Origin: Siderastrea radians
Lineage: Eukaryota > Cnidaria > Anthozoa > Scleractinia > Rhizangiidae
Length of the DNA: 64,000 bases
Direction of reading: 5' to 3'
Assembly: GCA_964017195.1 (NCBI GenBank)
Contig: OZ024887.1
Span: 3,462,881 to 3,526,880, forward strand
This document shows positions 1-56,889 of the stretch, piece after piece; the stretch's first letter is position 1; each line of letters starts with the position of its first letter. The notes under the pieces were generated by a model. The model was given only the letters and a program-made list of their open reading frames with translations, was not told the DNA's origin and made no database searches. A program made the position numbers and the translations under genes.

Positions 1-3000
1 GCCTTCGGAACGTGCAACGTTTCTGCCAGGAGCATAATCTTAAGAAAAGAACAAATATATCTGACGAGCAGCTGGATAATGTAGTGGCAGAGGCAGTTGC
101 TGAGGTGGGTGGCTTGGTTTTCATATATATAAAAATAATTCAATTATTTATCTATCGGTTATTTTATTTAGCAATGTGTGCATCTGTAACTGACTAACAT
201 AAGATAAAAGGCCATAAAAGCCTACACATAGAACATAAATCAATTGTGAAAATAAGCCCATCATCTCCCCCTTCCCCCTCCCCCCCCCCCCCGCCAGAAT
301 AGATGTCCCCGGAAAGAAATATAATTTCAAAAAGACCCTCCTTTTAGAAAGCAATCCACCGGTTTTGAGAATATAATGCACTTCAATGCTGTCATTGTAC
401 TTAGACCAAACCATAATGAGACCAGGAGCTAAAGATAAACAATGGGGGCGGAGGGGATGAGATGATGCCAAAAGGCTATTTTAATCAATGTAAGGCTATT
501 AATTAATTATTCATCGACCTGGAGAAATGGAGCCAATTTCGTTTTAGCGTGTGTAGCAGCAACTTTAATTTCTAACGACCTTACACAGACGTTCCCCCAA
601 GCCTACTGCCGGAGTGAAAACATAACATTGGGAAAAAAGATTGGTGTAGCAAAAATTGGCAGGCAATAATTGGTAGCCAAACACCGCTATTTTTTCAACA
701 TTGTTTAAATACTCACTAGGTTGGGCCAGTTTATGGAAGGAAAATGATGAAGGGTTATCTGGATAGCAAAGCTGGTTGCAGTTTGGCTTCACAAAGACGA
801 GTTGGTAATTCCCTTGCTCGCGTGAATCCTATCTATCATTTACACCGACGACGGGGAACAGAGCGCCAAACAAATCCGATGCCATACGTAGCCGAATACT
901 ACGGACACAAACTTCACATTGACCAAAACGAGAAACTGGCAGTGTATGGAGTGACCCACGTCTGTGCAATTGACGGATTTTCTCGGTTTGTTCCAGCATT
1001 TTCCTGTATGCCTGTGAAGAACAATGTGGTAATCTATGAAGAAATCTTCCGGTGAGTTATTTGCTTTTTAACTTTAGTTTGTTGAAACAACCTTCAGTAC
1101 TGTTCAAACAACCTTCAGTACAAAATATGCACACATTTTTGTTTTCCCCATAACGACTACTCAGAATACTTACTACACATTTGTCTATCTGTCAATCTCA
1201 ACTTTAATTACAGGAAAATCGTTCTTGAGGATGGTTTGTTTGATCAGATTAGGGTAGATCACGGTAAAGAATTCTATTTGACCCTGTTTGTCCAGGAACT
1301 GTTGGGGCATCTGCGGACAAATACCCAACGTGACTCACACCTACAGACTCAGTCAAAGAAGGTAAATACTTTATATCATAAAAATCCCCATTCAAACTGG
1401 GGGAAGAATCTGTCGCAATACGTTGAACGTCTACTTCATATTTCATATTATATAAATTGTGGTCTTTTGTGAGGATTGACGCTGAAAATCATAATCGTGC
1501 ATGTCCCGAAAAAGCTCTATTAAGCCCTCCACCCCGCTTTGGAAGCCAGATCTTTTAATAAGCCCTTTCCCCATTCTATTAAGCCTGCCTCAACCACACC
1601 CTTAGTGATTAGATATAAAATGCTGGTTGAAGTGTTACAGAACACATAGGGGATATTACTGTAAAACAGTTAAGAAAGATAGACTGTCAAAGCTCATAAC
1701 TTGATTTCCATTGGGCCATTGTAAGTCAAGGTTCTGTCAGTTTGGTCGGGCATACTCGGCAATTTATGATTTTAACTGAATTAGGGAACATTGTTGGCAT
1801 ATTGTCAAGACATCTTCGGACCTCCCGGGAAATATCCTGTAGCAATTGATGAACATTTTCGGATGACCTTTGCACAGTCCTCAGGATTCTGGTGAGGTGC
1901 TCAGCTCATTGTCAGCCCTTGGCACTGCTCGAGCATACGTCCTGGCAAGCCTGTTCGTAGGCCTCCCCAAAGATACAAAGACTTGTAAGGAAGCCATCTG
2001 CGAATTCGAAGAAGGCGGTTTACTCTCCATATACTGGATGTTTACTATTTATCTCATTTCAACTCCCTCCTTTCGCCCACTGATCACAGAGTGAAATTTT
2101 ACGTTTTAACTGAGTAATTTTCTCAAACAGAACTTGCGCATTGAACGATTCTGGGTAGAGGTAAATGCCCGGGTGAACTACCCAATAAAGAATGCATTGC
2201 GCAATATGGAAGAGGCGGATGAAATAGACATGGACCTCGAAGAGGCGAAGTTTTGTGTGTCTGCTGTAGCGACGAAGTTTGCAAAACTAGGGCTTGGGCA
2301 AGTCGTTCAATCCTGGAACAATCACCCGATAACTGGTGAGTGGTTTGCAAGTACCGAGTTCTCACTTTCTAAGTTCAAAGTGAATGTTAAAAGCAAGAAC
2401 ATAGAATAGCGGTAGGCTCATCTTGATTAATCAGTATCTCTACTGGAGTTATCATCGTCATTCTCTCAAATACAGTATGCCTACTATAAGCTGACATCTT
2501 TGGGAATGAGAATAGCTGTCCGTTTAGTGGAGGTGTCCGCTTGCTTACGGAAGTTTGTAAGTTGCAAAATACCATAAGGGGTGCCACCACTCCAATTAAT
2601 CAACATTTCAGGTTCACGCCCGTAAAAGTCCGCGTTAATGAACAAAAATGTAATCACGGTAAAATTGTTTTTAATGGTTCAAAAATGTTACGTAAAAGCT
2701 TCTGCTTTGGCACAAAGTTGTTTTTATCTTAAATAGACAGCAAGTAATCGTTTCAACAAGATAACGGCCTGATGCTAAGGGCCTATGAGGTAGTTAAATA
2801 CCATTTAATCGTACCTTTACTTTTAATAACATATCTCCCACTGAAAACGACTAGTACCAGCAGATCAAAGGGACAGAAACCGTTGGAAGGCGGTAAAGGG
2901 TGATACCCACCTCCCCTCCCCTACTCTCCCTATAGTTACTTCCACGCTCAACTGTCCTGAACATTTAAATTTCTATTTTTATCATGCATGCAGGCGTTGG

Positions 3001-3310
3001 CAAACCGACGGATCTTCGTCATTCCAACTTTCAGTGTAGCCGCATATCCATGTCCCAAGTCCCTACAGCCCAGGAAGCGGTGCAAGCGTACGAAGAACAA
3101 GGTGGTCGACTAACCATGTTTCCCCAATTTGGGACTGACCCTCTTGCTAACGACAGTGTAAATCAAGCGGAGAGAGAAAGACGATTCCATGCGTCAGCTG
3201 ATGTAGAGCAAGCATACGGAGAGTTGGTTAACGGCCAAGACGCTTTGTTTCGCCAAGCATTTGTGACCTACGAGGATATCAATAGAATTTTATCTGGCAC
3301 CCAAGAATAA
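1..3310 (+). CDS. DDE integrase-like transposase, left copy (5' partial, 5 exons)
   Basis: Exons deduced from frame and GT-AG signals are 1-104 (partial), 720-1051, 1214-1361, 2131-2335 and 2994-3310, with intron phases 0, 2, 0 and 1. The first visible residues are the end of an N-terminal helix-turn-helix-like region (QRFCQEHNLKKR). The catalytic core has HIDQNEKL (first Asp), VDHGKEF (second Asp) and RIERFWVE (Glu), spaced like the D,D-35-E triad of retroviral-type integrases. A C-terminal segment of about 105 residues (SRISMSQVPTAQEAV ... DINRILSGTQE) has no recognised domain. The protein should cut and join the element's ends in the nucleus. No stop or frameshift is seen in the exons present. 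Spliced transposase genes of this kind are annotated as 'integrase core' proteins in cnidarians and fish; that is recollection, not a search. Confidence 0.85.
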
Positions 3311-3456
3311 GGACGTAGTATCCCCAGTGCTTCCTGGGTATTAAAGAGCTGATCAAAGAATAGGGTGAACTGTTCTGTGGACTTAATGCGTTGAAATTGA
3401 ACACTCGTTATTTTAAGTTGTTTCGTTACAATTATCCTTTTTAAATGCTTTGATTC

Positions 3457-4393
3457 TGTTAGTTAGCGTACGCATGTTTCTTTTTGATCTATTGTTTTAT
3501 ACGCTTTGCCTGACAAGAGGGTCTCAATGGGGTGGTGACGTTTACAGTTAACGGTTAAATTTTTTGCCGTTTTACGGCAAACAGTTAACCCCATTGAGGC
3601 CCTCTGACAAGTAGCAAGTCACTTTAGTTCTTATGAAATGAATTGAACTGGTTTTGAAATCAACATGGCCTCACTTGTAGACGTCTTCCATTGGCATTTT
3701 TATTGTATTTGACCAGAATTTCCGTGTTAATTTGTAGATTAGTTGATATTTTTTTAAAAAATAAATGTTTATCATTACAGTTACATATCTTTACAATAAC
3801 TTGTCGTATACGATATTTCCATGAGCCTGCGCGCAAAAATATTGTTTGCTTGTTTAGTCATTCTATCTGAGTGAGCGGCGCGCGATGACCCAGCAGCCAT
3901 TGCCCTTAATATTTTTCTTGATCATTTTGTTGGACTTCTCTTTGACAAAATAACACTTTAGCCCGAGAACAGAGGGAAATAGAGCGAAAAAAAAAAAAAA
4001 CAAGAAAGCACTGCCTGGGTAGGGCAAATTGGGTAAGTTCCCCCCCGGAAACCTCTGCTGTTTTCAGTGTTTTGATTTATTGTTTTGAGATTAAAAAATG
4101 GAATCAATACGAAATTTAACTTTCTGAAATAAAATAAAAAGTTCAAAAATCGTCATTTTTCTACTTTCAATCGGCTCAAGAGAAATGAAAAAAGGAAAAT
4201 TGAAAATTGAAATTTTCTGAAAAAAGTGAATTTTCAATATTACATTTTCCGTAACGAAAAGAAAGCTGAAAAATCAGAAAAAATGGATGATTTTCAATTT
4301 TCAATTTGTATTTGAAAATCGAAAAACACAAAAATTCTGATTTTGTATTTCAATTTAAAATCAAAAATCGATTGGCGCGAAGGTACACGGATT
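3457..4393 (+). repeat. Long terminal inverted repeat, integrase side, left copy
   Basis: This sequence begins near TTAGCGTACGCATG and runs to ACGGATT. It matches 12676-13517 in the same orientation, and 4899-5823 and 22438-23340 in reverse complement. Without the 86-bp insertion it is about 840 bp. Its outer half is extremely AT-rich, made of short GAAAATTGAAAATTG-type motifs. It starts about 150 bp after the integrase stop codon. Confidence 0.85.
3510..3611. mobile_element. 86-bp hAT-like MITE with 8-bp target duplication
   Basis: The insertion 3518-3603 has imperfect inverted ends (AGGGTCTCAATGGGG / CCCCATTGAGGCCCT). It is flanked by direct repeats CTGACAAG at 3510-3517 and 3604-3611. The equivalent site in the RING-side repeat (about 12725) is empty and reads GTGACAAGTAGC. 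Target duplications of 8 bp are typical of hAT elements. Confidence 0.8.
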
Positions 4394-4898: not shown

Positions 4899-5823
4899 AA
4901 TCGATTTTTGATTTTAAATTGAAATACAAAATCAGAATTTTTGTGTTTTTCGATTTTCAAATACAAATTGAAAATTGAAAATCATCCATTTTTTCTGATT
5001 TTCGATTTTTCAGCTTTCTTTTCGTTACGGAAAATGTAATATTGAAAATTCACTTTTTTCAGAAAATTTCAATTTTCAATTTTCCTTTTTTCATTTCTCT
5101 TGAGCCGATTGAAAGTAGAAAAATGACGATTTTTGAACTTTTTATTTTATTTCAGAAAGTTAAATTTCGTATTGATTCCATTTTTTAATCTCAAAACAAT
5201 AAATCAAAACACTGAAAACAGCAGAGGTTTCCGGGGGGGGAACTTACCCAATTTGCCCTACCCAGGCAGTGCTTTCTTGTTTTTTTTTTTTTTCGCTCTA
5301 TTTCCCTCTGTTCTCGGGCTAAAGTGTTATTTTGTCAAAGAGAAGTCCAACAAAATGATCAAGAAAAATATTAAGGGCAATGGCTGCTGGGTCATCGCGC
5401 GCCGCTCACTCAGATAGAATGACTAAACAAGCAAACAATATTTTTGCGCGCAGGCTCATGGAAATATCGTATACGACAAGTTATTGTAAAGATATGTAAC
5501 TGTAATGATAAACATTTATTTTTTAAAAAAATATCAACTAATCTACAAATTAACACGGAAATTCTGGTCAAATACAATAAAAATGCCAATGGAAGACGTC
5601 TACAAGTGAGGCCATGTTGATTTCAAAACCAGTTCAATTCATTTCATAAGAACTAAAGTGACTTGCTACTTGTCAGAGGGCCTCAATGGGGTTAACTGTT
5701 TGCCGTAAAACGGCAAAAAATTTAACCGTTAACTGTAAACGTCACCACCCCATTGAGACCCTCTTGTCAGGCAAAGCGTATAAAACAATAGATCAAAAAG
5801 AAACATGCGTACGCTAACTAACA
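4899..5823 (-). repeat. Terminal inverted repeat, integrase side, right copy (terminus truncated)
   Basis: This is the reverse complement of 3457-4373. The homology stops at AATCGATTTTTGATTTT near 4899, so the outermost bases through AATCCGTGTACC are missing. It carries the same MITE insertion as the left copy. Confidence 0.85.
5669..5770. mobile_element. 86-bp hAT-like MITE, mirror copy
   Basis: This is the mirror of the MITE at 3510-3611 with the same CTGACAAG flanks, in reverse orientation. Its presence in both arms shows it was inserted before the two arms separated. Confidence 0.8.
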
Positions 5824-5969
5824 GAATCAAAGCATTTAAAAAGGATAATTGTAACGAAACAACTTAAAATAACGAGTGTTCAATTTCAACGCATTAAGTC
5901 CACAGAACAGTTCACCCTATTCTTTGATCAGCTCTTTAATACCCAGGAAGCACTGGGGATACTACGTCC

Positions 5970-8900
5970 TTATTCTTGGGTGCCAGATAAAATTCTATTG
6001 ATATCCTCGTAGGTCACAAATGCTTGGCGAAACAAAGCGTCTTGGCCGTTAACCAACTCTCCGTATGCTTGCTCTACATCAGCTGACGCATGGAATCGTC
6101 TTTCTCTCTCCGCTTGATTTACACTGTCGTTAGCAAGAGGGTCAGTCCCAAATTGGGGAAACATGGTTAGTCGACCACCTTGTTCTTCGTACGCTTGCAC
6201 CGCTTCCTGGGCTGTAGGGACTTGGGACATGGATATGCGGCTACACTGAAAGTTGGAATGACGAAGATCCGTCGGTTTGCCAACGCCTGCATGCATGATA
6301 AAAATAGAAATTTAAATGTTCAGGACAGTTGAGCGTGGAAGTAACTATAGGGAGAGTAGGGGAGGGGAGGTGGGTATCACCCTTAACCGCCTTCCAACGG
6401 TTTCTGTCCCTTTGATCTGCTGGTACTAGTCGTTTTCAGTGGGAGATATGTTATTAAAAGTAAAGGTACGATTAAATGGTATTTAACTACCTCATAGGCC
6501 CTTAGCATCAGGCCGTTATCTTGTTGAAACGATTACTTGCTGTCTATTTAAGATAAAAACAACTTTGTGCCAAAGCAGAAGCTTTTACGTAACATTTTTG
6601 AACCATTAAAAACAATTTTACCGTGATTACATTTTTGTTCATTAACGCGGACTTTTACGGGCGTGAACCTGAAATGTTGATTAATTGGAGTGGTGGCACC
6701 CCTTATGGTATTTTGCAACTTACAAACTTCCGTAAGCAAGCGGACACCTCCACTAAACGGACAGCTATTCTCATTCCCAAAGATGTCAGCTTATAGTAGG
6801 CATACTGTATTTGAGAGAATGACGATGATAACTCCAGTAGAGATACTGATTAATCAAGATGAGCCTACCGCTATTCTATGTTCTTGCTTTTAACATTCAC
6901 TTTGAACTTAGAAAGTGAGAACTCGGTACTTGCAAACCACTCACCAGTTATCGGGTGATTGTTCCAGGATTGAACGACTTGCCCAAGCCCTAGTTTTGCA
7001 AACTTCGTCGCTACAGCAGACACACAAAACTTCGCCTCTTCGAGGTCCATGTCTATTTCATCCACCTCTTCCATATTGCGCAATGCATTCTTTATTGGGT
7101 AGTTCACCCGGGCATTTACCTCTACCCAGAATCGTTCAATGCGCAAGTTCTGTTTGAGAAAATTACTCAGTTAAAACGTAAAATTTCACTCTGTGATCAG
7201 TGGGCGAAAGGAGGGAGTTGAAATGAGATAAATAGTAAACATCCAGTATATGGAGAGTAAACCGCCTTCTTCGAATTCGCAGATGGCTTCCTTACAAGTC
7301 TTTGTATCTTTGGGGAGGCCTACGAACAGGCTTGCCAGGACGTATGCTCGAGCAGTGCCAAGGGCTGACAATGAGCTGAGCACCTCACCAGAATCCTGAG
7401 GACTGTGCAAAGGTCATCCGAAAATGTTCATCAATTGCTACAGGATATTTCCCGGGAGGTCCGAAGATGTCTTGACAATATGCCAACAATGTTCCCTAAT
7501 TCAGTTAAAATCATAAATTGCCGAGTATGCCCGACCAAACTGACAGAACCTTGACTTACAATGGCCCAATGGAAATCAAGTTATGAGCTTTGACAGTCTA
7601 TCTTTCTTAACTGTTTTACAGTAATATCCCCTATGTGTTCTGTAACACTTCAACCAGCATTTTATATCTAATCACTAAGGGTGTGGTTGAGGCAGGCTTA
7701 ATAGAATGGGGAAAGGGCTTATTAAAAGATCTGGCTTCCAAAGCGGGGTGGAGGGCTTAATAGAGCTTTTTCGGGACATGCACGATTATGATTTTCAGCG
7801 TCAATCCTCACAAAAGACCACAATTTATATAATATGAAATATGAAGTAGACGTTCAACGTATTGCGACAGATTCTTCCCCCAGTTTGAATGGGGATTTTT
7901 ATGATATAAAGTATTTACCTTCTTTGACTGAGTCTGTAGGTGTGAGTCACGTTGGGTATTTGTCCGCAGATGCCCCAACAGTTCCTGGACAAACAGGGTC
8001 AAATAGAATTCTTTACCGTGATCTACCCTAATCTGATCAAACAAACCATCCTCAAGAACGATTTTCCTGTAATTAAAGTTGAGATTGACAGATAGACAAA
8101 TGTGTAGTAAGTATTCTGAGTAGTCGTTATGGGGAAAACAAAAATGTGTGCATATTTTGTACTGAAGGTTGTTTGAACAGTACTGAAGGTTGTTTCAACA
8201 AACTAAAGTTAAAAAGCAAATAACTCACCGGAAGATTTCTTCATAGATTACCACATTGTTCTTCACAGGCATACAGGAAAATGCTGGAACAAACCGAGAA
8301 AATCCGTCAATTGCACAGACGTGGGTCACTCCATACATTGCCAGTTTCTCGTTTTGGTCAATGTGAAGTTTGTGTCCGTAGTATTCGGCTACGTATGGCA
8401 TCGGATTTGTTTGGTGCTCTGTTCCCCGTCGTCGGTGTAAATGATAGATAGGATTCACGCGAGCAAGGGAATTACCAACTCGTCTTTGTGAAGCCAAACT
8501 GCAACCAGCTTTGCTATCCAGATAACCCTTCATCATTTTCCTTCCATAAACTGGCCCAACCTAGTGAGTATTTAAACAATGTTGAAAAAATAGCGGTGTT
8601 TGGCTACCAATTATTGCCTGCCAATTTTTGCTACACCAATCTTTTTTCCCAATGTTATGTTTTCACTCCGGCAGTAGGCTTGGGGGAACGTCTGTGTAAG
8701 GTCGTTAGAAATTAAAGTTGCTGCTACACACGCTAAAACGAAATTGGCTCCATTTCTCCAGGTCGATGAATAATTAATTAATAGCCTTACATTGATTAAA
8801 ATAGCCTTTTGGCATCATCTCATCCCCTCCGCCCCCATTGTTTATCTTTAGCTCCTGGTCTCATTATGGTTTGGTCTAAGTACAATGACAGCATTGAAGT

Positions 8901-9403
8901 GCATTATATTCTCAAAACCGGTGGATTGCTTTCTAAAAGGAGGGTCTTTTTGAAATTATATTTCTTTCCGGGGACATCTATTCTGGCGGGGGGGGGGGGG
9001 AGGGGGAAGGGGGAGATGATGGGCTTATTTTCACAATTGATTTATGTTCTATGTGTAGGCTTTTATGGCCTTTTATCTTATGTTAGTCAGTTACAGATGC
9101 ACACATTGCTAAATAAAATAACCGATAGATAAATAATTGAATTATTTTTATATATATGAAAACCAAGCCACCCACCTCAGCAACTGCCTCTGCCACTACA
9201 TTATCCAGCTGCTCGTCAGATATATTTGTTCTTTTCTTAAGATTATGCTCCTGGCAGAAACGTTGCACGTTCCGAAGGCTACAACCTCTGACACCAGGGA
9301 AGTTTTCTTGAAGCAACTTCGCAAGCTCTTCCATTGTGTAATTCTGGTCTTGCAACAAATTTCTCACCCATTCTGCATCCACCAAATCTCCAAGAGCAGC
9401 CAT
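5970..9403 (-). CDS. DDE integrase-like transposase, right copy (complete, 5 exons)
   Basis: Exons are 9403-9176, 8560-8229, 8066-7919, 7149-6945 and 6286-5970, giving 409 residues with intron phases 0, 2, 0 and 1. Residues 1-60 form a helix-turn-helix-like DNA-binding region (MEELAKLLQENFPG ... LRNVQRFCQEHN). A retroviral-integrase-like core follows, with the acidic triad D144 (HIDQNEKL), D202 (VDHGKEF) and E241 (RIERFWVE). The spacings are 57 and 38 residues. SWNNHPITG closes the core, and an uncharacterised tail of about 105 residues follows. The start ATG at 9403 matches the 76-residue first exon of the paralogue at 14077. The protein presumably acts as transposase on the AATCCGTGTACC ends. 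It shares a divergent upstream region with the RING gene at 11329. All exons are open, so it may be functional. Confidence 0.87.
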
Positions 9404-11328
9404 AGCTAGTTATTTCACCAGTACACACGCAAGAATTGTAACGTGACTGGGAGATGCGTGACGTGTGTCAAGAATACTTTAGATGCTTACGTGACATTTT
9501 AACGAAGTGAAGAGTAATATGGTAGTTCGTGTGATAATTTACGTTTTAATCAAGCAGAAATACATAGCTTAATTACCATCGATTTTAGCATTTTCTTATG
9601 CAATCCTTTCAGTTCTTGTACATGCGTACATTTACTTATGGTTTTTAGTAACTAGGCTTAATCAAACATGGGACGTGCAAACATCATGAAAGGGGTCTAG
9701 ACCGAAAATAGGTGGTGTGTTTTTTAATATCATGTTAAAAAAACAGTGTTGTATCAGCACTAGTATTCAAAGAACTGAATGAAATCATTTTCCGTCGTTC
9801 TACAAAGCTGTTCCAACGCACTACTGTACATGTCTTTCCGAATGATAAATGTCCTATGGGAAAACCCTTAAAGGTAGTCTCATTAAATGCAGCCGAATGG
9901 TCGTAAATATCAACCTTCCCTTTGAATTATGTTTGATAGAAACAGTAAGCCTCATAAACCTTGGGATCGATCATGAACTTAGCAAAGCAACAATTCATAA
10001 GTGTCCCCACACACGTTGTATTTTCACAAAAACGTTTTTTCTTTCAACTTAACCAAATTCCAAGGTAGAAGACATTTTCAAAATTTAAAGTTGTAGGCAG
10101 ATACAGTTCAAATCAGTGATTTGGACTGAGAAATCATGTATATAATTTCTACACAAAACATTTCCCACGCAGTAGAAGTCTTCCAACACGATAGGGAAAC
10201 CCTTTAAATTATGTTAACGGGAGGGCAGTGCCAAGGTAGCAGCGTTTCATTGCAAAGGTGCCTGAACACATGAATGATATATTTTTCTCAAGGAAAGGAT
10301 GAAAAAAAAAACCCTTTAAATCACTTAGTTTCCCCGTTTTCATGTTTAGTTTCAGGGGACAGGGTGACCAGTGCAAAGGTAGCGGCCTTAAATGCAAAGG
10401 TCCGGGAAAGGTGTCCCAACACGAGTAGTGTCACGGTTTTTCCGTGAGAAAAATATATCATTCATGTGTTCAGGCACCTTTGCAATGAAACGCTGCTAGC
10501 TTGGCACTGCCCTCCCGTTAACATAATTTAAAGGGTTTTCCTATCGTGTTGGAAGACTTCTACTCCGTGGGAAATGTTCCACAAGTCACAAAACATTTGC
10601 CAGATGAAGGGTGCAGATGTGTACAGTGCAGTCAAAATCAACTTGCCTTGGACTGAGAAATCATGTTCATATTTCTACACGAAACATTTCCCATGCCATA
10701 GAAGTGTTTCAACACTGCAGGAAAACCATTTAAGGACGGTACATTTCCCAAGTGATAATGATAGGGCGTAACATAGCAGAGGAGTCCGAACATGCGTCAA
10801 TTTTTTCCCATAAAAAAATAAAGAACAGGACAAAAATTGGTTTGAAAAGAATTTTCAATTTGGAGTTATTATGTTTTTTTTCCTTAATGACACATTGATA
10901 ATTTTTTTCTTGTGTTAGAGAACAGATATGAAACGTGGTTTTGGTAATGAGCACGTGTTCGTCTTTAATTCAGTGACCATTAGGATCCATTAGTATCATC
11001 ATGTATATTCCAAGAAATGTGTTATCACAAAGCAAGGTCAATGAAACATGGCTCTAATGGATTTTTGTGATAGTCCAACCATTTTTTGTGAAATTCTAAG
11101 CAAGTTTGAATAAGTTTTACACACACTTGCTTAATGTATCATGGTACCCCAAAATTGGCCACTTTAAGGGAATCGCAAACAGTTCCCGTGGGAAAGTTGA
11201 TTGTTACTCTGTCTGCAGTATATAAACTGCGGAATAACCTTGGACCAAACCAGTTTAACAAACTAAGCCACATCACGCGGAGAGCTCCAGTCTCTTTCAC
11301 TTTATGCTCTGTGAAAAAAAATTGAAAA
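9404..11328. promoter_or_regulatory. Shared divergent 5' region of the integrase and RING genes
   Basis: This region of about 1.9 kb separates two start codons facing away from each other, so both promoters must lie here unless 5' exons exist elsewhere. No coding sequence is convincing. It contains a strong hairpin and direct repeats (10121-10720). I cannot point to a definite TATA box or initiator. Confidence 0.5.
10121..10720. repeat. Long imperfect hairpin nested in direct repeats
   Basis: Arms at about 10158-10297 and 10437-10579 are inverted copies of roughly 140 bp; shared words include GGCACTGCCCTCCCGTTAAC and CATTCATGTGTTCAGGCACC on opposite strands. In addition, the words GACTGAGAAATCATGT and ACATTTCCCA plus GAAGT recur in direct orientation about 530 bp apart (10125 and 10655). 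This may be a small inserted element or a structured control region. Confidence 0.7.
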
Positions 11329-12524
11329 ATGTTCACTTTTTTCCGTCAAACGAATGGCGAAAGACGAGAAGTTCAAATCAGGTCATCTGATCTTACAGTT
11401 CAGAGACTTGCCACAGTTTTTAAGTTGAGCACACAGGCGCTATATCTTGAAGAAGAGTTTAGCGGACGGGCGGAGTTTCCTAGTGAGAGAGGCACGTTCA
11501 ACACCACCGCCTGGGAGCAGAACGCGACGTTTCGAGTGGAAGGTGAAACTTCAAGTGCATCCTTCAATACTGAAGTGGCTTCAACTAGTAGCGCTAGCGC
11601 TTCAGGATCGTTAAACAGAACATTTCCAACAAGTAGCCAGTTCCGGTCGGTCATCCCTGTCGGCCGGTCGAATAGTCGCACTCCATCTCCCGGTGTCACG
11701 CAGCAGTACGCGACTCCAACAACAGCTAAGAAAAGTATAAGGAAATCAGTGGCCCTCTGCAAACCAAAGATTCTCCGCGGGAAAATTGTTCTGGACGAAG
11801 TAATCAGTACCCACTTTGTGTCATTTACTGAAGAGCAGGCCAGCACCGCGGAAATTGCCGAAATGGTATCATCACAAGTAGAAAATGAGGCAGCGGTGAC
11901 CCTAGTGGACAGCAAATTTTTGGAAGTACCAGAAACAGCGACAGGTTAGTATTATCCTTCATTCGTTTAATTCTCAACTCCAGAGCATCGTAAAAGTTTC
12001 CACGAAGACTGAAAAACCTTGACTAATTTACTATCGTCTAAATTTTATTTTCCCTTTATTTTGCAGTTGACTACTTCAGACCTCATAGCAGGAATATCTA
12101 CGCTGTGCTGACCTCAGAACTAGACGCAATCAAACAAAGGATTCACTCCCAAAAGCGCAAGCGGACGGACAGTAGTGAACACTTGCCGGAGGAGATCAGC
12201 GAAAGGCTGGATGCAGTGGAAGAGAAAGTTGCCCGAGTTTCGGAACTTTGTGCAGAAATTAACAACAAGATTGGGGAACAGCAAAGAAGGGAACTAGCGA
12301 CATTCAAAGAACAGGTGACTTCAAATCTCACCTGCACAATTTGCAGAGACATATGGAGCCCCCCGGTGCGTATGGCGCAGTGCTGCGACAGCATTTTGGG
12401 ATGCGATCCGTGTGTTCGCCAGTGGATGGCGGACAACACTACATGCCCACATTGCAATACGGATGATGCAACCACCTTGATAGTGCGGGGATTGGATGGA
12501 CTTATTGATTTGATAAAAGAATAG
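11329..12524 (+). CDS. RING-finger protein of the transposon (2 exons)
   Basis: Exons 11329-11944 and 12067-12524 join in phase 1 to give about 357 residues. Residues 1-70 (REVQIRSSDLTVQRLATVFK, then ALYLEEEF) look like a small beta-grasp or ubiquitin-like fold; that is inference from pattern only. A serine/threonine-rich linker follows, then a second conserved block, a coiled-coil-like stretch (AVEEKVARVSELCAEINNKI), and a C-terminal RING. The RING has CTIC, QCC, GCDPC and CPHC as likely zinc ligands. RING domains of this kind usually give E3 ubiquitin ligase activity; the substrate is unknown. A paralogue at 18591-21661 keeps the same order and the same phase-1 intron before the YAV motif. 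The gene ends about 150 bp before the terminal repeat. Confidence 0.82.
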
Positions 12525-12675
12525 AATGAACCGTGGAATTGAACTACCGTGACTACCGTCAGATAAACTTGAAGTATTCGTTGAAGTTGAACACACTCAT
12601 GGATAACACCCGAATGTATATGTGAAGTTTGTTTTTTTACAATTTTCATCTGGAAAATTGTCTTTATTCTGTTTG

Positions 12676-13517
12676 TTAGCGTACGCAAGTTTCGTTGTGA
12701 TCCAATGGTTTATACGTTTTGCGTGACAAGTAGCAAGTCACTTTCGTTCTTATGAAATGAATTGAACTGGTTTTGAAATCAACATAGCCTCACTTGTTGA
12801 CGTCTTCCATTGGCTTTTTTATTGTATTTGACCAGAATTTCCGTGTTAATTTGTAGATTAGTTGATATTTTTTTTGAAAAATAAATGTTAATCGTTACAG
12901 TTGCATATCTTTACAATTACTTGTCGTATACAATATTTCCATGAACCGGCGCGCAAAAATATTGATTGCTTGTTTAGTCATTCTATCTGAGTGAGTGGCA
13001 CGCGATGACCCAGCAGGCATATGCCCTTAATAGTTTTCTTGATCATTTTGTTGGACTTTTCTTTGACAAAATAACACTTTAGCCTGAGAACAGAGGGAAA
13101 TAGAGCGAAAAAAAAGCAAGAAAGCACTGCCTGGGGAGGGCAAATTGGGTAAGTTCCCCCCCGGAAACCTCTGCTGTTTTTAGTTTTTTGACTTATTGTT
13201 TTGCGATAAAAAATGGAATCAATACGAAATTTGACTTTCTGAAATAAAATAAAAAGTTCAAAAATCTTCATTTTTCTACTTTCAATCGGTACAAGAGAAA
13301 TGAAAAAAGGAAAATTGAAAATTGAAATTTTCTGAAAAAAGTGAATTTTCAATATTACATTTTCCGTAACAAAAAGAGAGCTGAAAAATCGAAAATCAGA
13401 AAAAAATGGATGATTTTCAATTTTCAATTTGTATTTGAAAATCGAAAAACACAAAAATTCTGATTTTGTATTTTCAATTTGAAATCAAAAATCGATTGGC
13501 ACGAAGGTACACGGATT
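12676..13517 (+). repeat. Terminal inverted repeat, RING side
   Basis: About 842 bp from TTAGCGTACGCAAG to the terminus ACGGATT. It matches the integrase-side repeats at 3457-4393 and 4899-5823 and the derivative element at 22438-23340. It lacks the 86-bp MITE found on the integrase side, so the two ends of the element are distinguishable. Confidence 0.85.
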
Positions 13518-13960
13518 GGTGTATCGATAGTTCATTTCGTTTTTCATTGTTGAGGGCTTAATCGAAACATACAAATTACGTCCATTTCTTACTCATTTTT
13601 TTAATTTTTGACTAAAATTAGAAAAATGGAAAAATACAAATTATGTCCACTGTTTATTCATTTTTTTAATTTTTGACTAAAATCAGAAAAATGGAAAAAT
13701 ACAGATTATGCCATTGTTCATTCATTTTTTTAAATTTTCGACTTAAATTAGAAAAATGGAAAAATACAATTATGTCTATTATTTATTCTTTATTTTTGAC
13801 TTAAATAAAAAAAAAAGAAAAAATAGACGTTGTTTTTATTTTCAATTTTCTATTTTTTGAGTAGATCAGAAAATGGAAAAACGGAGGCTGCTTCTTTTGT
13901 TTATTTTTTAATTTTCTAAGCTTAAGTGAAGACAATAGACAATATAAATTTCCAAATCGT
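13518..13960. repeat. AT-rich tandem hairpin array next to a transposon end
   Basis: Four to five units of about 65 bp start near 13571, 13637, 13702 and 13767. Each combines an ATTATGTCC-like word with a hairpin (TTTTTGACTAAAATTAG, AAAAATGGAAAAATAC). The units resemble those at 4540-4780 and 21945-22437. No gene is seen. Confidence 0.7.
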
Positions 13961-14076
13961 TTTAGTTGACTACGCAAATAATAGCAACCAAACTACACCA
14001 TGCCATGATCACATGTCTGGGTGTTTGTGTAGGAGCTCACAAGCCGAACGGTGTCCTTTCTGATGTTTTGTACTGC

Positions 14077-17000
14077 ATGATGCGTTTAGAATCACTTGTT
14101 ACCGTGGGTTTTGTCAAAGACTTGGTGGATAAGAGATACTCTCACAGGCAAGTAAGTGAACACCTAAGAACACTGTTTCCAGAACAAAGTGGAATTTCAC
14201 CTCGCAGTGTAGAGAGGTATTGTTCCCGCCATAACATACACTACAGAAACAAGAACCTCCCAGATGACATTGTGGACAATATTTTGTCAACTGCTGTGAA
14301 AGAGGTGTGTAGTTCGAACAACTGCGTATATTTTGTTTTCAAGTGAATAATCTGAATCACTCAGCCGTGGAGTGCGTTATTATGCATATCTCTATCGGAT
14401 TCCGGTAACGCAATCGTGGTCGGTGCTGTTTTCGTACTTTCGTTTCTGTTTGGAAATATTATCATTCCTTATACTTACTTCAAAACTAGCGTATGCAAAA
14501 GGCAGGAGTATTGACAATCTTTTGGCATCTTGCCCAAAAAGAGAAACGCCCGAAAACAGCACCGACTACAATTGCGTTACACGGTCTAGAAATGCACCCC
14601 AGGGATGTGCACCTGATAAACTCCCCAACGGCTGAGTGATTTTCGTGATAGAAGTTGATCATGTTTTAAGCGGAACGCTTCTGCCATTTTCACTCTAAAG
14701 GGAAATTTTCTTATTACTTCAGGTTGGTCCTACATTTGGTCGAAAATTTATGGCAGGTCATTTACGTCACACGAGAGGCATACGCATTGGGGTAAATCGT
14801 GTAGCAGCATCTCTTAAGCGGGTTTCTGGTAACTACCACCGCCAGAGACAAGTGAGCACCGCACGACTGCTCAATCCAATCCCTTACTTCGCTCAGTATT
14901 TCGGACATAAGATCCACCTGGATCAAAATGAAAAACTGGCAAGATATGGCGTGACGGAAGTAGTTGCCGTTGATGGATACAGTGCATATATCACCGCTTT
15001 CTCGGTTATGCCGATAAAGAACAACGTTACAATCTATGAGGAAGTTTACAGGTAAGTAACCTGTTATCGTGTGACATGAGAGAGTTCTCATAAAAACGTT
15101 TCGATTGGCCGCGGCAAAATTTAGGTGATTTTGCAACCTGCCAGGTGTGAAACTGTCAGCTATGTTGCAAAACCTTGCTTGCTCCAGCTTTTAATTTGCA
15201 CATGCTGTTCATTACTTGTTAGGAGGACTGTTGAAAAACACGGTGTATGGGATCAGGTTCGTGTTGATCATGGGACAGAGTTTTTCCTGACTTTATACAT
15301 CCAGGACGTGTTAAAAGACTATAGTACAAATCACACGCGGCCACCCTATCTACAGACACAATCCAAGCAGGTATGCAGTATTAATTGCACTTTTTACTAG
15401 TAATACTGACAGCTTATGGATTTTTTCATCATCAGCAACTCTTCACCTTCAAAACTCTTCACCAAATGTAGATTTTTAAATATCCTGTTATAAACAGTAT
15501 TATATACATATATGAATTATCGCTAAATTTCATATAGTGGCCTATAGGTTCCAGGGAAGTTCCCTTTCCGCTGACATTTTGGAGATAAAAGAGAACTCAA
15601 CACCGATAGCCCTAAGTCTTTCGGCACCCTTAGATTTCGAAAGGTTGTTGTCTTCAAGTCCCGGCGGAGCTAAGCCACCTTTAAAACCTTGGAACAAAAT
15701 AATAAGTGTTTTTTTCCGTTAGATAGTCTTTAATGACCAGACGGAACAGCCAACATGTCGCTACAAGTGTATCATGTAATGTTCATTGCAGAACCACACA
15801 GTAGAGAGATTTTGGGTGGAGGCTAACTCGAGGGTAAATTATCCTGTTAAAACTGCTCTGGTCCAGTTGGAAAATGATGGACAGATCGATATGGGAATTG
15901 AAACGACGAAAGGCTGTGTGTCAACATTTACTGGAAAAGTTATTCAAATTGGTCTTCAGTATACTGTTGGAGCATGGAATTGCCGCCCAATTCCCGGTAA
16001 GAGACAATGGCACCAGTCACATTAGTTTACTGACACCTCAAATTGTGTTCACTCATTTCTGTCACGCCTATAGGTCACATGTCGGATATGACCCGAAAAA
16101 TGAAAAAATTCGCCAAAAATTTGCGTTACTTCCGTTTTCCTCTAAATTGGGAGTACAGGAAGTTGATAGATTTAGCCAATCACCCAGCGATTTTGGTCTA
16201 AGACTCTTAAATGTGTCCTACATGACGAATTTTTTAGAGTCACGCTCTGCGTGTTGAAAATGGCGTCCGCTCCGAAGAGATTTTGAGCAGAATTTATCGA
16301 TCCAGGAGACATTCCCGACACGATTTAGAATTCCTATGAGGAGCCCGAAGGTTTTTCAAGTGATAAAGAGAGTATTTTGGGCCGGCAGCTCGAAAATCAG
16401 AGCGAAGAATGAAAGTAAGCGATCAATAACCTTTCCAACACGAGGTTTCGCAATAGTGACGCAGTTGAAATTATGTTCTTGAAATGCGAAGATATGCTCT
16501 TCGGGTCGTCCTCCTGCTTCAGAATTCTTGCCTATTTCATGAAATATGTCTATAAATTCATATTTGAGAGTGAACAGCGCGATAATTTTGAAGGGAACCT
16601 TTTTTTGAGCGATTTTGGTCGAGCGAAGAGGGACGCGTAATTCAATCCCACGCTAAGAGGATTATATGGTTGCTATGGAGAAATGCTAATAGGTCAAATC
16701 CTAGAATGGGTGAGATAAAAAATCATAACTAATTTCAGTTTTGTTCTTTTTCAGCCAAATTTTCAGGACGTTTTGCTGATATGATATAGAACATTTTTCT
16801 TTTTAATATCTAAATACAATTATATCATCATTTTGGAAGAATTTACTTTTTTCCTCAAATATATGAATAATTTATCCTGTTTTATGTTAAGTAAGATTTT
16901 TTTTCAGAAATAGTTTGTGTTTTTATGATGAGATATATTTTTTTCTGAGAAGCCCATTTTATCCCCTTTCAAATGAGATATTGTAGACCACATTGCTGTT

Positions 17001-18254
17001 AATACCTGTCGAGATATGGATTACCTAAATTTTTGATAGATCGCCTACAAAATGTCCAGAATGCTGCGGCTCGCGTTGTTACTCGTACAAGGAAGTATGA
17101 TCACATCAAACCTGTCTTAAAGCAGCTACACTGGCTCCCAGTTAGCCAGAGAAAAAATACAAGATCTTACTTTTGACCTACAAAGCGCTCAACGGCCAGG
17201 CCCCTAGTTACATTACTGAACTGCTAGAGCCTTACGTACCAACCAGGAATCTGCGATCCTCCTCCAAAAACTTACTGAAAGTACCATCTGTCAAGTTAGT
17301 AAGTTATGGTCATAGGTGCTTCTCTTTTGTAGCACCTAGCCTTTGGAACTCTCTTCCGAATAATATAAGAGAGAGCGGCTCGCTATCAGATTTTAAGACT
17401 TGTATAAAGACATACCTTTTTAACAAATTTTATAATTAGACTATTGGTTAGTCAGTTAATTAGTTATTCAGATAGTTTAGCTAGTCAGTTAGTTACTTAT
17501 TAATTAGTTAAGTTAGTTAACTAGTTAGTTTCATTTAAAGGTTCTATTGATTCTTAGTTTTTTCCATTTTTACAGCTTAGTTATTTTATTAGTTAGTTTA
17601 TTTTTCTTATTATTGGTGACATTTTTAAAATTATTGTAAAGCGCTATTGAATAGCACTAGAAATAGCGCTCTATAAATTCATTATTATTATTATTATTAT
17701 TATCTCAGATCTCAGGTTACTTCTCTTCCGTTGAAGCAGTTTTGAATGAATTTCTGAATGCATGTCAATCAACTTGTTTTTCGCAGGCGTAACCATAGTA
17801 ACCGACCTTATAATGTAGCCGCCGTCTCTATGGTTCAGAAGAAATCTTGGCAGACTTTAGTTACAACTTTCGGAGATCATTACTTGTCATCCAGTAATGT
17901 TGTAAAATATGTTTTCTTTTTGTTTATTTTTACACAGGAAAAGGTGCCCCAGAGGACAGAGCCAAAGTTAACGTAAATACGGGGGCTATTTCTTCCGACT
18001 GTATCCCCTCCTCCAATGGCGCGGTTGAAATGTACCATTCTTCAGGCGGGCACTTGCAACTCGAAAACTCATTTGCAGCTGATCCCCTAGCACAGCTACA
18101 GCATAAGGCTCTGAAACGAGACCGCGAATTCGCGAAGTACTTTCCAAGTTTACACGAGATATTTCATAAAGTATCCAATGGAGACTACGAACCATTTAAG
18201 AATGCCCTGTTGTATTACATAAGATTGACTAATTCTCTGTTAGAACAAAATTAG
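14077..18254 (+). CDS. Second-family DDE integrase-like transposase (5 exons)
   Basis: Exons are 14077-14304, 14723-15051, 15223-15370, 15792-15996 and 17938-18254, giving 408 residues with intron phases 0, 2, 0 and 1. Exons 1, 3, 4 and 5 have exactly the same lengths as in the first-family gene (228, 148, 205, 317), although the proteins are strongly diverged. The triad is HLDQNEKL, VDHGTEF and TVERFWVE. The N-terminal helix-turn-helix-like part reads VSEHLRTLF ... SVERYCSRHN. The tail includes FAKYFPSLHEIF. I chose the ATG at 14077 because it gives the 76-residue first exon of the paralogue. Intron 1 holds a MITE and intron 4 a LINE fragment. All exons are open. It converges on the RING gene at 18591-21661. 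Confidence 0.85.
14355..14641. mobile_element. 287-bp MITE in integrase intron 1
   Basis: The ends are inverted copies (AATCACTCAGCCGT at 14355-14368, ACGGCTGAGTGATT at 14628-14641). A second inner pair contains GGTCGGTGCTGTTTTCG and its complement. The insertion does not touch splice sites. The target duplication is unclear. Confidence 0.7.
15997..17030. other. Intron 4 of second integrase, left part
   Basis: This intronic sequence of about 1 kb lies between the exon 4 donor and the LINE fragment. It has low-complexity AT stretches (16740-16960) and no coding frame or repeat that I recognise. Confidence 0.5.
17030..17705 (+). mobile_element. 5'-truncated LINE (CR1/Jockey-like) 3' end with TTA tail
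   Basis: Translation gives the C-terminal tail typical of CR1/Jockey-type reverse transcriptase ORFs. The words are LQNVQNAAARVVTRT, LKQLHWLPVSQR, YKALNGQAPSYI and APSLWNSLPNNIRES, with a frameshift near 17160. It ends in (ATT)n at 17683-17703, the usual microsatellite tail of such elements. It lies inside intron 4 of the integrase gene in the same orientation. Confidence 0.85.
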
Positions 18255-18590
18255 GAAGTAGAACTGAAGGGCAAATACACTTCTAATTTTACGTCAGTAA
18301 AAGGAACTTTAATAGTTTCACCATCGTATTACAGTTAGATCCATGAATTTAAAGAACGCTATGCGTATTACACTATTGTCACCAACACCCGAAGACTTCA
18401 ACGAAAATACTCCTAACAGTCTTCATTTAAAACCGTGCTGTAAGTTTCAAAGTAAGAGTATCCTTCGACAGTACAAAAGCAAATTTCAACCAAAAAAATG
18501 CTACGTTCATAAAGTTCTCTAAGATGTCCCGATTGTAGCTGCAAGCCTTACTGATAGACCTTCAGAGCATCGAGGGTTACAACGTTTACA
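18255..18590. other. Convergent intergenic gap
   Basis: 336 bp between the stop codons of the second integrase and second RING genes. It should contain both 3' UTRs. No repeat or other feature is seen. Confidence 0.5.
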
Positions 18591-21500
18591 TCAGTTGTCT
18601 TCCAGCTTGGAGATTACAGCATCGAAGTCGTCGAATCCTTTAAGCAGAAATTGCTTCTCACGACCCTCCTCATTCTTGCATATTGGGCATCGCGAATTCC
18701 CTCCAAACCATGTTTCAAGGCATGAACCGCAGCCCAAAAGCCTTTGGCAGCACTTCGACACTGTCAATCGCCTCGCGACCTTGAAGCAAATACAACATTT
18801 GAACGCCTCTTTCAAGCTTTTAACCAAGATTTCATTCACCTCGGAGACGTGTTAATTTGTCTATCGTCTCAGCCATATCCTCTAAGATGCCCTCATCCAT
18901 CCCTTCCGATTTACGTTTCTTCTTGGCTGCAGACTTTCCTCTTTTCTCTTGGCGTTTCTTTTTTTCATAATCACCCAATGTCACGGCATACACTTTTCTC
19001 GCTGGAACATTCCAGAAGTCTTCTCCTACGATAAAGAATCAATGGAACATGACTTTTTAAGGTTTAAATATTTTGCGTTTTGCATCAATAGTGAAGTAGT
19101 AAGGTGTTGACATTTGTAAATAAATAAAAATATATAACCTGTTTATTTTTGCTCGAGTTGCAAGTGAAGAGTTAAAATCTAACTGTTTGGTACTTGGGTT
19201 ATGAAAAGTTTGAATGTTGACTGTTCAGGGTAAAACAATATCTGTTTTTTATTATGAAATATATATATTTTATTACTTTGAAACAACTGATTCAATGGAT
19301 AAATAAAGATGACTTGTGAATAAACTGAGTTGAAATGTCTCACACGTTACACAGTGCAACAAACGCTTACTTGAAATTGGAATTTTGGAGCACTGTTTTA
19401 CCCCAAAGGCGTTAAAATAGATTCAATAAAATTTGTAAGCTAATTAAAAGAGGCAATAAGAGAGGGCTCAAAAGACGACTTAAAAAGTACTCAAATCTAC
19501 ATAAACGATATTTTTGATTTGGTATAAATAATGGGCATTACTTTGCTTCTTTGTTAGTAGCTAGTAGCAATTGGCAATTGTAACTTACCCCTTGTTGATT
19601 CACCATCCATTATTTCATAGCCATGGACATCAACAATTACAAGATCTTCATCAAGGTTGAGATAGTCCTTAACCAGTCTGCTTACATCATGGACATTGCA
19701 ATCCTCCTTTTTAAGTTTCAGATGGGCAGTATGTGACTTGACTAATTCGGTGTCGCTGTCAAAATGTGCCAGGAAGACAACTCTTTTAAAAGCACTCTTC
19801 TCTTTTGGCTTACCAAAAGTAGAGTTGAGCTGTGCATAGCTCTTCTGTGGTTTCACGGTTTGGTTTGTTGAGGTTCCCGGTCGACACACTCCTAATTGCT
19901 GTGGAGATGGCAAAGTGACACTATCGTCTCCAGCATTTGGCAAGCTCTCTCCCATTACTTGCATTGTGACACGGTCATGCCAAAAGGTTGAGTCAAAGCC
20001 ACCGGTTACCTCACTTGGAAACCTTGCCACCCGTGTAAAGTCGTCCTCCAGATATAATGTCTCAGGAGCCACCTATAATATTATTAGAGGCAGACAAATA
20101 ATGTTGGACTTACACTATATCCTACAGGGACTTCTTTCCTTTGAAAGGCTCAGGATGCCTTTCCAGTTACATTTACTCTCCTCCCTCACATGTCTAACTT
20201 CTGAAGCCTTGCACCCCACTTCCTATGCTAAGCCACCCCAAAAAAACATGTACACCACAACCCACCCACCCCACACCCCATCCAGACCCCCTCCCCCCCC
20301 CACCCCCGCTGACTCCTAGTTGGTTAGTTATTTAAAAAATCCCTGGACATAACAAAAATAATGCTTAATGAGCATTATGGAACCTGGAGGAAAAATAACA
20401 TTTTGCACAATCTCCGGATGGAAAAATGACAACAGTGAAAGATACACCGCATCAGATAAATAGGATAAAATTGATCCCACGCGCGACTGTTTACATAGTT
20501 GCGGAAGAATTTTTACACGGTCGTTGGTTGGCATTTACATCGGTGCAAATTATACATCTACCCGTAACGACGAAAAACTTGATTGAATGATGGAAAAAGG
20601 TGAAATAACACGATAACAATAACAGATAAAGGATAAAATAGCGCCAGCTTAGCCAGCAGTTGCGGAATAAATAATACCGACAAACGAGTGAAACTTGAAA
20701 CCTGTTTGATTTGCAATGCATGACAGATGGAAACAGAAAATTCTTCCTGATTCGCACTTCAAAGGGAAAAAAATCCAACGCATTAATTTTCAGTAAGATT
20801 TTCAAAAATTTCAACATTACATCAATTTAAATATTTTTTTTTTCAGTGAAGTTTCATTTCCGGGAGAAGTCAATATTGGTATCGAAACTACATGTCACGA
20901 AATCTTAACCGGTTCGTTTTTGGATAACTCGCTAGTAAATCGTTGCCCTTAAGTACATGAATTTAAATTATGAAACACTTCACACAATATCTAAGCTCAA
21001 TAATTATATATTAAATAGAGCGCTAAGGTAAGATGACTTTAACATTTTCAGGAAACTACATCTGTAGAAATGCAATCAAAAAATAAATCAAATCAAATTT
21101 GCAGTTCCACAAAGTTACAATTTACAGATCGGCGGAGGTAATAACATTAGAACGTCAAATAAGGGCTCCAGGAATTGACTTGTTAGCATGTTCAGATTGC
21201 AGAAGTATAGCTATGTGGCAGGAGTGTAACTGTTAAACATATTTTCTCACGGAACTATTTTTAATAATAGTTTTTACGATTTGCGAGTCATCCATGTGCT
21301 CGCGGTTAAATTTCACAATTTTCATTGACTTAGTTATTTACTTCTACCGAGATGATTCGGAATTGCAATTATAACAGATAATTGCCTTCAAACATCGTGC
21401 CTTGTCTGTCCAGGTCGGTAATATATTAGTTTTTGTTTTCGTTGTAGAGGTCTGCCATTGCGTTGTATACATGCGAACACACATGAGATCACATGCGAAC

Positions 21501-21661
21501 TTGATCGTTCGCTCTTCGTATACAAAAAATTATATTAGCTGACTCACCTTAAAGACTGAAGAGGTCTTTGAGGTTTGCAGGTCGTCTTCGCCGACAACAA
21601 TTCTTTTCGCTCCCCTCCAAAGCACAAACTGTTTAAGGCCGAACCCACCGTCCATCTCCAT
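18591..21661 (-). CDS. Second-family RING-finger protein (3 exons, apparent frameshift)
   Basis: Exons are 21661-21548, 20072-19589 and 19025-18591, with phases 0 and 1. The predicted protein starts MEMDGGFGLKQF. Its conserved N-terminal block (AKRIVVGEDDL, ETLYLEDDF) matches the first-family protein, as do the middle block (DVSRLVKDYLNLDEDLVIVD) and the YAV motif. A lysine-rich stretch (EKKKRQEKRGK) precedes the C-terminal RING (CCIC, KCC, GCGSC, CPIC). Within exon 3, near 18845, the frame carrying DKLTRLRGE runs into a stop. The RING continues in another frame, so one base is out of register there. This could be a real inactivating indel or a sequence error. Exon 1 is separate here but fused to exon 2 in the first-family gene. 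Intron 1 (20073-21547) is about 1.5 kb. Confidence 0.75.
20073..21547 (-). other. Intron 1 of second RING gene
   Basis: About 1.5 kb. It contains a C-rich low-complexity patch (about 20250-20310) near the acceptor side and otherwise AT-rich unique-looking sequence. No open frame of interest. Confidence 0.5.
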
Positions 21662-21899
21662 CTTTGACACAGTAAACGCGAAGCCTTCAATTTGGCGGGA
21701 AATGGACCCACGTTTGGTCCACGTGACCTGAATCGTGCTGTTTTTACTTTTTTTCTGGCATATTTTAAGCAGGAAAGTTATTCATCTCCTGCGTGTTATT
21801 TTATGCTTGAGATATTGCAAAGGACAAAGTTCTTTACTGCCGAGGTCTTTTAGTTAGTCTTTTTTCTCGCTAAGGTAAAATAATGTAAAACTAGATATT

Positions 21900-22437
21900 G
21901 AAATCAAGCTGAAGATTTCGAAATTTAATCATATTTTTCCTTCTAGCTGAAAATGGAAAAATAAAAATAAAACCAAGCAATTATTTTCATTTTTCTCATT
22001 AGAATCAAATTGGGAAAATAAAATATCGAACTTAAAATAATTTGACTTTGTATTTTTTTGTTTTGCATTGCAAAATAAAACAATAAAAGAATACCAAATA
22101 ACATCAAGTATTCTCCACTTTTTTCACTTGTGCCCAAAAACAAAAAAATTAAACAAACAATGGACACAACTTCCATTTTTCCATTTTTCTAACGTAAGAC
22201 CGAAATGGGGAAAATGGAGTATATTTCAATTTGCTTTTTTTCATTTTTGTATTAAAAATGGAAAATAGAAAAAATTGATAACTACACCATGAATATTACA
22301 TTTTTTCATTTTTTCACTTGACTTAGAGTAATAGACAAAGACAAAAATTGACAAAATTCGCTTTTTAAACGTAAGCAATATTTTTTATATTTTAAAGTCA
22401 ACTTGAAATTAGAAAAATGAAAAAATGCTTCATTTTC
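21900..22437. repeat. AT-rich hairpin array left of the derivative element
   Basis: Degenerate units such as CCATTTTTCTAACG facing AAATGGGGAAAATGG, and TGAAATTAGAAAAATG, resemble the arrays at 4540-4780 and 13518-13960. The array ends exactly where the next terminus AATCCGTGTACC begins. Confidence 0.65.
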
Positions 22438-23972: not shown

Positions 23973-24399
23973 AAATTTTCCCCTACCTTTTTGCAATTTT
24001 ATATTTTTCCTCTTTAATTTAAAATGAAAAGATACTGTATAGTTGAATAAAAATTGGCTTTTCCATTTTTTGAGAAAAATAGAAAAACGGTTTGGCGGAA
24101 TCGTGCCCGGACCTTTGATGTTACCTCATTGTTTCATTTCTCCAATTTGTGTCGTAAAACAGAAAAATGAAAAAAAATACCAAAAAGTTGCTTTTTTGGT
24201 ATAACCTCATTTTTTCAATACTTTAAATTAATTTAAAATTGAAAAAATTAAAAACCATTGTAAATTTCGTGCTTTAATTCATGTTAAATATTTTTCGCTA
24301 TTTTGAAATAAACATCAAACAGTTAAGATAAACAAAATTTGATTTTTCTATTTCAGTGAAAAAAATGAAAAATTGAATTGGCCGAACCGTGCACGGACC
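23973..24399 (+). repeat. AT-rich DNA with two further transposon-like termini
   Basis: Two plus-strand right-hand ends follow the same pattern as ACGGATT but differ in sequence: TTTGGCGGAATCGTGCCCGG then ACC at 24113, and ATTGGCCGAACCGTGCACGG then ACC at 24399. After the first end, 24116-24175 is the reverse complement of 4395-4466. No gene. Confidence 0.55.
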
Positions 24400-56800: not shown

Positions 56801-56889
56801 ATCATAACAAAAACAGTTCGTGTATAGATCGATTATGTGATCGCTTAAATTACTAAGATCTCTGCTTGCCATGTTCCACATGATCTCCA

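Follow-up and report, generated by a model that had tools for sequence, protein, structure and literature searches.

Do two genes that stand side by side in the genome of Siderastrea radians, one encoding a DDE integrase and the other a RING-finger protein, belong to a single mobile element, and if so, what does the RING protein do there? The stretch analysed, called here the window, is 64,000 nucleotides long and covers C1:3462881-3526880, where C1, C2 and so on are contig labels in the 805-Mb, 439-contig genome of origin. Both genes lie in element B, a near-complete 8.6-kb transposon copy at window positions 4899..13517. In all likelihood, B is a DNA transposon with a regular two-gene make-up, in which one gene encodes a DDE transposase of the retroviral-integrase type and the other a protein with a RING finger at its end.

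The right terminus of B is ..GGTACACGGATT at 13517; the outermost 20 bp of the left end are missing. Repeat comparison yielded a left terminal inverted repeat at 4899..5871 (plus strand), cut off at 4899, and a right one at 12619..13517 (minus strand), about 0.8-0.9 kb overall. Positions 4899-5675 and 12724-13497 (about 780 bp) are 94.5% identical over 781 columns, and the inner stretch is weaker (5763-5871 against 12619-12730, about 80%). The last 500 bp of the right repeat have at least 53 genomic matches, with 40 of 129 candidates scored. Between the repeats, the integrase gene (5970..9403, minus strand) has five exons (9176-9403, 8229-8560, 7919-8066, 6945-7149 and 5970-6286) and encodes 409 amino acids, and the divergently transcribed RING-finger gene (11329..12524, plus strand) has two (11329-11944 and 12067-12524) and encodes 357. 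Both genes are intact, open from ATG to stop, with GT-AG introns. The first-pass annotation, which had reported inverted repeats around two divergent genes with open exons, is thus borne out.

Copies, termini and subfamilies

Among the candidates scored, B-type integrase exon 2 (97-100% identity) was found at eight loci, and so was the full-length B-type RING exon. These counts are not a census, as 150 of 155 candidates were scored in the integrase search and 150 of 159 in the B-type RING search. The two genes pair one to one, divergently in all eight cases: elements A and B on contig C1 and one pair each on C2, C3, C5, C7, C9 and C10. In seven pairs the genes are 3.5-6.3 kb apart; on C3 they are separated by 24.4 kb, inside one 30.7-kb unit with GACTTC on both flanks. 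A single-copy host RING gene, the alternative named in the first-pass annotation, is rejected by these multiple exon matches. The RING-side end falls at the same base in all eight copies, and the flanking bases differ among them. Because all these ends stop at one base, the 65-bp tandem repeats of the region, described below, were rejected as true termini of B.

Element A lies to the left of B, in inverted orientation and across a gap of 505 bp. It is complete (C1:3458642-3467273, 8632 bp, from AATCCG to CGGATT), its right, integrase-side part occupying window positions 1..4393, and across 8620 aligned columns it matches B at 99.8% identity. Two such similar inverted arms could have been misassembled, the genes being unrelated neighbours. 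However, six further B-type pairs are present on six other large contigs with different flanking bases, and since these copies exist, this explanation is refuted for the pairing; we give it a negligible probability.

The termini, derived from target duplications and comparison of copies, are AATCCG..CGGATT in B, GGTCCG..CGGACC in element C, a diverged relative in the same window, and AATAAA..CTAATC in a third type, denoted 444. Both genes lie inside these matching, related termini (AATCCGTGTACC; GGTCCGTGCACG; AATAAAAGTACC/GATTAGTGTACC). Exact 6-bp target duplications were observed for the B-type copies on C2 and C3, for both 444-type copies examined (ATCTAC and CTCGAA) and for one C-type copy, on C12 (AAAAAA). 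The shared termini and the duplications fit one mobile unit. The duplication on C2, ACGGAC, resembles by eye the tail of the C-type terminus. B-type ends are often situated in or beside related element ends: those on C5, C7 and C9 abut another element end, the RING-side flanks on C5 and C7 run into another related end, and on C7 a piece of the terminal repeat is present in the opposite orientation.

Next after B among the integrase matches listed are eight C-like ones (on C10, C1, C193, C2, C3, C14 and two on C8). For seven of them, a C-type RING gene in convergent orientation lies no more than 10 kb away; the one on C193 has none among the matches used. The 444 type combines an intronless integrase (a 444-aa open frame) with RING-gene frames on the opposite strand, in a 6.5-kb element on C8; a second copy, of 7.3 kb, is on C1. 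Its first RING exon has matches of 95-100% identity at a distance of 4.5-5.4 kb from eight integrases that are 43-47% identical to that of B (on C8, C1, C2, C4, C11, C6 and two on C7), again convergently, and weaker matches beside further integrase relatives. Its matches at C298 and C2:24325136 have no listed integrase nearby.

Genome-wide, a RING-gene relative was found within 25 kb of 33 of the 38 near-full integrase exon matches and within 10 kb of 32, the chance expectation being about 0.13% per locus, a figure that is the genome fraction near the 60 RING matches used and no tested null. These 60 were chosen from 179 (135+15+29), leaving out partial N-type fragments (see below) and further pieces of genes already represented; 79 of 84 integrase matches were used, five second pieces of listed loci being dropped. 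The first-pass annotation had proposed co-occurrence within 10 kb as a check; the opposite outcome that it had named, integrases mostly without a nearby RING gene, is not observed in this genome. The likely partner among the 33 is divergent in eight cases (all of type B), convergent in 24 and on the same strand in one; the divergent arrangement is confined to subfamily B, and the other subfamilies are convergent. The proposal that integrase and RING gene travel together is supported by the B-type pairs, by homologous RING genes in the C and 444 subfamilies, and by the termini and duplications. As distantly related branches of the family have all kept the pair, the RING gene probably belongs to the standard equipment of the element and is no stowaway. 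Such recurrence across diverged subfamilies is more of a surprise than a single capture would be.

For integrase matches at 37-38% identity, no RING relative was found within 10 kb (0/13); one of these 13, at 38% on C12, has a RING relative at about 23 kb. The other 12 are a lineage of 474-aa integrases (37% identity) used as a control (0/12 within 10 kb), although more divergent RING genes could escape this search. This single-frame PF24764 family (C1:44940000-44943999, C4:7596500-7600499) has 12 genomic matches of similar score, and the two copies compared, on C1 and C4, are 99.9% identical.

The transposase and the RING protein

The B integrase matches the Pfam domain PF24764 (rva_4) with E 1.1e-21. 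The 444 integrase has the same core, and the C integrase aligns along its length. No Pfam match to an integrase zinc-binding domain was found in the B and 444 integrases. Alignment places the candidate catalytic residues of B at D144, D202 and E241, which are invariant in 17 sequences; in a set of 56, the first is invariant and the other two are conserved in at least 90%. In a model of a relative from the sponge Dysidea (predicted local distance difference test score, pLDDT, 92), the RNase-H core matches those of IstA, TnsB and retroviral intasomes, IstA being a top structural match. The candidate residues and the modelled fold support strand transfer by a DDE enzyme.

The best protein match of the B integrase is from the octocoral Dendronephthya (59%). 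Relatives in fish, sponge and cnidarian genomes are labelled uncharacterized or hypothetical. A tree of 37 integrases places B with sequences from Dendronephthya, Paramuricea and Actinostola (99/100), and this group then joins hydrozoan and other sequences (94/90). C is weakly joined to a Porites sequence (96/29), 444 groups with no other sequence, and fish, sponge, Lingula and Mytilus sequences fall between them, where the backbone is poorly resolved. Hence the lineages that carry the pair in this genome do not form one young clade. A search of genome contigs yielded one 4.4-kb sponge-symbiont contig with an integrase fragment, in which a six-frame reading recognised no RING, an uninformative result.

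The RING proteins of B and C contain, by eye, the zinc-ligand pattern CxxC..CC-x5-CxxC..CPxC; the spacing in 444 is wider. The closest solved sequences to the RING are the E3 ligases RBBP6 (E 2.3e-4) and RNF8 (2.8e-4), and profile comparison points to TRIM37 and RING2. Features of E2 contact and activation are a tryptophan in the second loop, the CPxC motif and, following the final cysteine, a basic residue. By eye, the tryptophan (CxxCxxxW) and CPxC are kept in B and C, and the basic residue in C and 444. Going by these residues, the RING protein probably has E3 ubiquitin ligase activity. A ubiquitin-like fold of its N-terminal half was considered and is unsupported (model pLDDT 48; the 444 exon has no Pfam match). 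A protein-database search with the B sequence alone gave four matches; a three-row profile gave 15 at E <= 10, all of exon size, of which 14 were below 1e-11, two of these being encoded in the window. Viral contigs contain pattern matches, but no confirmed relative among them.

One possibility is that the RING protein acts without ubiquitination, as a transpososome subunit involved in end binding or target choice. The charged, by eye coiled-coil-like stretch ahead of the RING would suit assembly, and the IS21 transposase, the system of IstA, uses a dedicated ATPase partner (as stated in an excerpt of PMC11208146). However, the E2-activation residues listed above have been kept, and we regard a purely structural role as unlikely.

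RING exon 2 of C was compared with six sequences forming two groups of three near-identical ones. The proportion of silent differences (pS) is 0.77-0.84, i.e. saturated, and that of amino-acid-changing differences (pN) is 0.27-0.41, which indicates that purifying selection acts on the exon between groups. For integrase exon 2 of C and five sequences, pS is 0.81-0.90 and pN 0.23-0.24. Amino acid identity in RING exon 2 and integrase exon 2 is 43% versus 68% when C is compared with the copies on C2, C3 and C14, and 60-61% versus 65% with those on C8 and C10. The eight B-type RING copies, of which A and B are identical, contain 24 amino-acid-changing, 14 silent and one stop codon variants. Relative to the RING gene of B, the ratio of nonsynonymous to synonymous rates (dN/dS) is 0-0.20 for the copies on C3, C10, C5 and C2, 0.45 for C9 and 1.39 for C7. 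The pair has spread recently and some copies are decaying, with the protein kept between groups.

Several observations weigh against a regular two-gene element. No target duplication was found at the B-type copies on C9 and C10, that of A is 5 bp long, and that of the C-type copy on C8 is imperfect. The integrase-side terminus is present in four of the six B-type stretches outside C1 (C2, C3, C9 and C10), not on C5 and C7. For five of the 38 near-full integrases (C193, C79, C14:25569260, C7:13791563 and C3:6671137), the matches used include no RING relative closer than 25 kb; the one on C193 has a RING fragment 1.2 kb away once partial matches are admitted (a count with 87 RING matches). One of the 33 paired loci, C6:17106082, has only a same-strand match, which is also the partner of C6:17114986. 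Shorter integrase matches at 40-62% identity have a RING relative within 10 kb in only 8 of 28 cases. Pfam RING models match below their curated cut-offs, and modelling gave no usable structure for the protein's N-terminal half. Finally, three of the eight B-type RING copies are damaged, by a stop on C9 and gaps on C3 and C7, leaving five free of either.

This damage would also fit a captured host gene that is carried as a passenger and has no role in transposition, and so would derivatives without an intact integrase, namely the short element N in the window and the C12 copy of C. Transposons are known to acquire genes; in fungi, TET/JBP dioxygenase genes move between transposon superfamilies (excerpt of PMC12730594). 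However, homologous RING genes stand beside integrases that are only 54% (B and C) and 47% (B and 444) identical over exon 2, and the RING genes of B and C have one intron position and phase in common. Moreover, purifying selection on the RING gene is seen at a divergence where silent sites are already saturated; of a passenger, one would rather expect decay or replacement. We consider the passenger explanation very unlikely.

Possible functions and relation to known transposons

Under the two-gene interpretation, the transposase, with a predicted N-terminal helical region, an RNase-H-fold core and C-terminal helices, would cut at the matching termini, and the RING protein would be an E3 ubiquitin ligase on which the element depends. 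As a first guess, its target may be the transposase or the transpososome, for turnover or disassembly after strand transfer; a close alternative would be a host silencing or restriction factor. Regulated protein turnover in transposition has a precedent in ClpX of phage Mu, and the RING of RAG1 is a hint. A direct role of the RING protein in the transposition cycle is put forward tentatively. If transposons bring their own ubiquitin ligase, the need of animal cut-and-paste transposition for regulated protein turnover becomes directly testable.

Alternatively, degradation by the ligase may be aimed at a host silencing or restriction factor and not at the transpososome. The TET/JBP genes of fungal elements, including IS3EU, are thought to oppose host silencing (excerpt of PMC12730594), and an anti-silencing role has been suggested for transposon deubiquitinases (excerpt of PMC9741609). 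In part of the family (C against C2, C3 and C14), RING exon 2 has diverged faster than its integrase counterpart, which points the same way. However, retention beside most integrases fits a cis-acting role too. Action against host silencing is conceivable, if somewhat doubtful.

Judged by sequence and with no protein named IS3EU or GingerRoot in the integrase tree, the lineage resembles IS3EU/GingerRoot. All three subfamilies have 6-bp target duplications, which are usual in that group (excerpt of PMC10045372), and, again as in that group, an IS3/IS481-like DDE core without an N-terminal HHCC finger. However, GingerRoot termini are mostly TA..TA and occasionally TG..CA (same excerpt), whereas those of B, C and 444 are not TA..TA, and the second gene here encodes a RING protein. 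In TET-bearing fungal IS3EU, extra genes also accompany the integrase-like transposase, namely an alpha-kinase in opposite orientation and TET/JBP (excerpt of PMC12730594). Ginger1 and Ginger2 are likewise eukaryotic transposons with an integrase-like transposase, placed apart from IS3EU/GingerRoot; Ginger1 has an HHCC domain (excerpt of PMC10045372), unlike B and 444 with their lack of a zinc-binding Pfam match.

A RING finger accompanies a DDE transposase in Chapaev/Transib and RAG1-RAG2 as well. RAG1 and RAG2 derive from a two-gene transposon, and the RAG1 RING has ubiquitin-ligase activity (excerpt of PMC4411706). There, however, the RING is fused to the transposase (same excerpt), whereas here a separate gene on the opposite strand encodes it, next to an integrase-type transposase. 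Helitrons also encode a ubiquitin-pathway enzyme, but it is a deubiquitinase domain within the rolling-circle open reading frame (excerpt of PMC9741609), in contrast to the separate RING protein and DDE integrase described here.

No description of an integrase/RING pair was found in the titles and abstract openings covered, and none of the papers searched mentions both IS3EU and a RING finger; Repbase reports and subscription journals were outside this search, so a prior description is possible. Tentatively, the elements may represent an ancient animal-wide group of integrase-type transposons (in cnidarians, sponges, fish, molluscs and brachiopods) built on an obligate pair of transposase and RING E3 ligase. 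If the homologous RING partners are inherited, many animal relatives should carry a RING gene too. The finding predicts possible neighbours of uncharacterized integrases in fish, sponges and cnidarians, and RING genes related to these may themselves belong to transposons.

Neighbouring elements in the window

Element C occupies positions 13519..24113, with the right terminus ..GTGCCCGGACC at 24113, and was compared with copies of 10.3 kb (C8:43208257-43218592) and 8.4 kb (C12:4706650-4715088), the latter with a deletion that takes out integrase exons. Its integrase gene (14077..18254, plus strand) is intact and encodes 408 amino acids in five exons of 228/329/148/205/317, the values in B being 228/332/148/205/317. 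Its RING gene (18594..21661, minus strand) consists of the pieces 21548-21661, 19589-20072, 18847-19025 and 18594-18843, with one frameshift between the last two. The second integrase/RING pair reported for the window by the first-pass annotation is real, with corrections: the gene order is convergent, the RING gene is frameshifted, and the element is interrupted by N and lacks its left end, which is absent at the junction with B and was not found in the 82 kb examined. Circular permutation was considered as the cause of the opposite gene order of B and C and rejected, because the C copies on C8 and C12 end outside both genes.

Element N (22438..23972, 1.5 kb), which has inserted into C, is a short relative of B and non-autonomous. 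It has 286-bp terminal repeats and retains a remnant of RING exon 2 (23462-23686, minus strand). The copies on C8 and C12 show the C sequence without N, and the flanks of N are consistent with a copied ATTTTC and two additional bases. At C8:43218597-43224752, three N elements with spacer are arranged in tandem with a period of about 2191 bp.

A nearly palindromic tandem repeat of about 65 bp was observed at window positions 4396-4781, 13560-13880 and 21940-22430, in subterminal parts of C and in a spacer that has relatives in the C8, C10 and C12 regions. The last intron of the C integrase (17003-17436) contains a fragment that by eye resembles the end of a reverse transcriptase of a long interspersed nuclear element. 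Elsewhere in the window, a dispersed 1.2-kb repeat is present at 24400-25584 and 55570-56806 (87% identity), and three long single-exon frames (45921-47003, 52854-54038 on the minus strand, and 59915-61159) look by eye like rhodopsin-type G-protein-coupled receptors, the first two being 86% identical in DNA.

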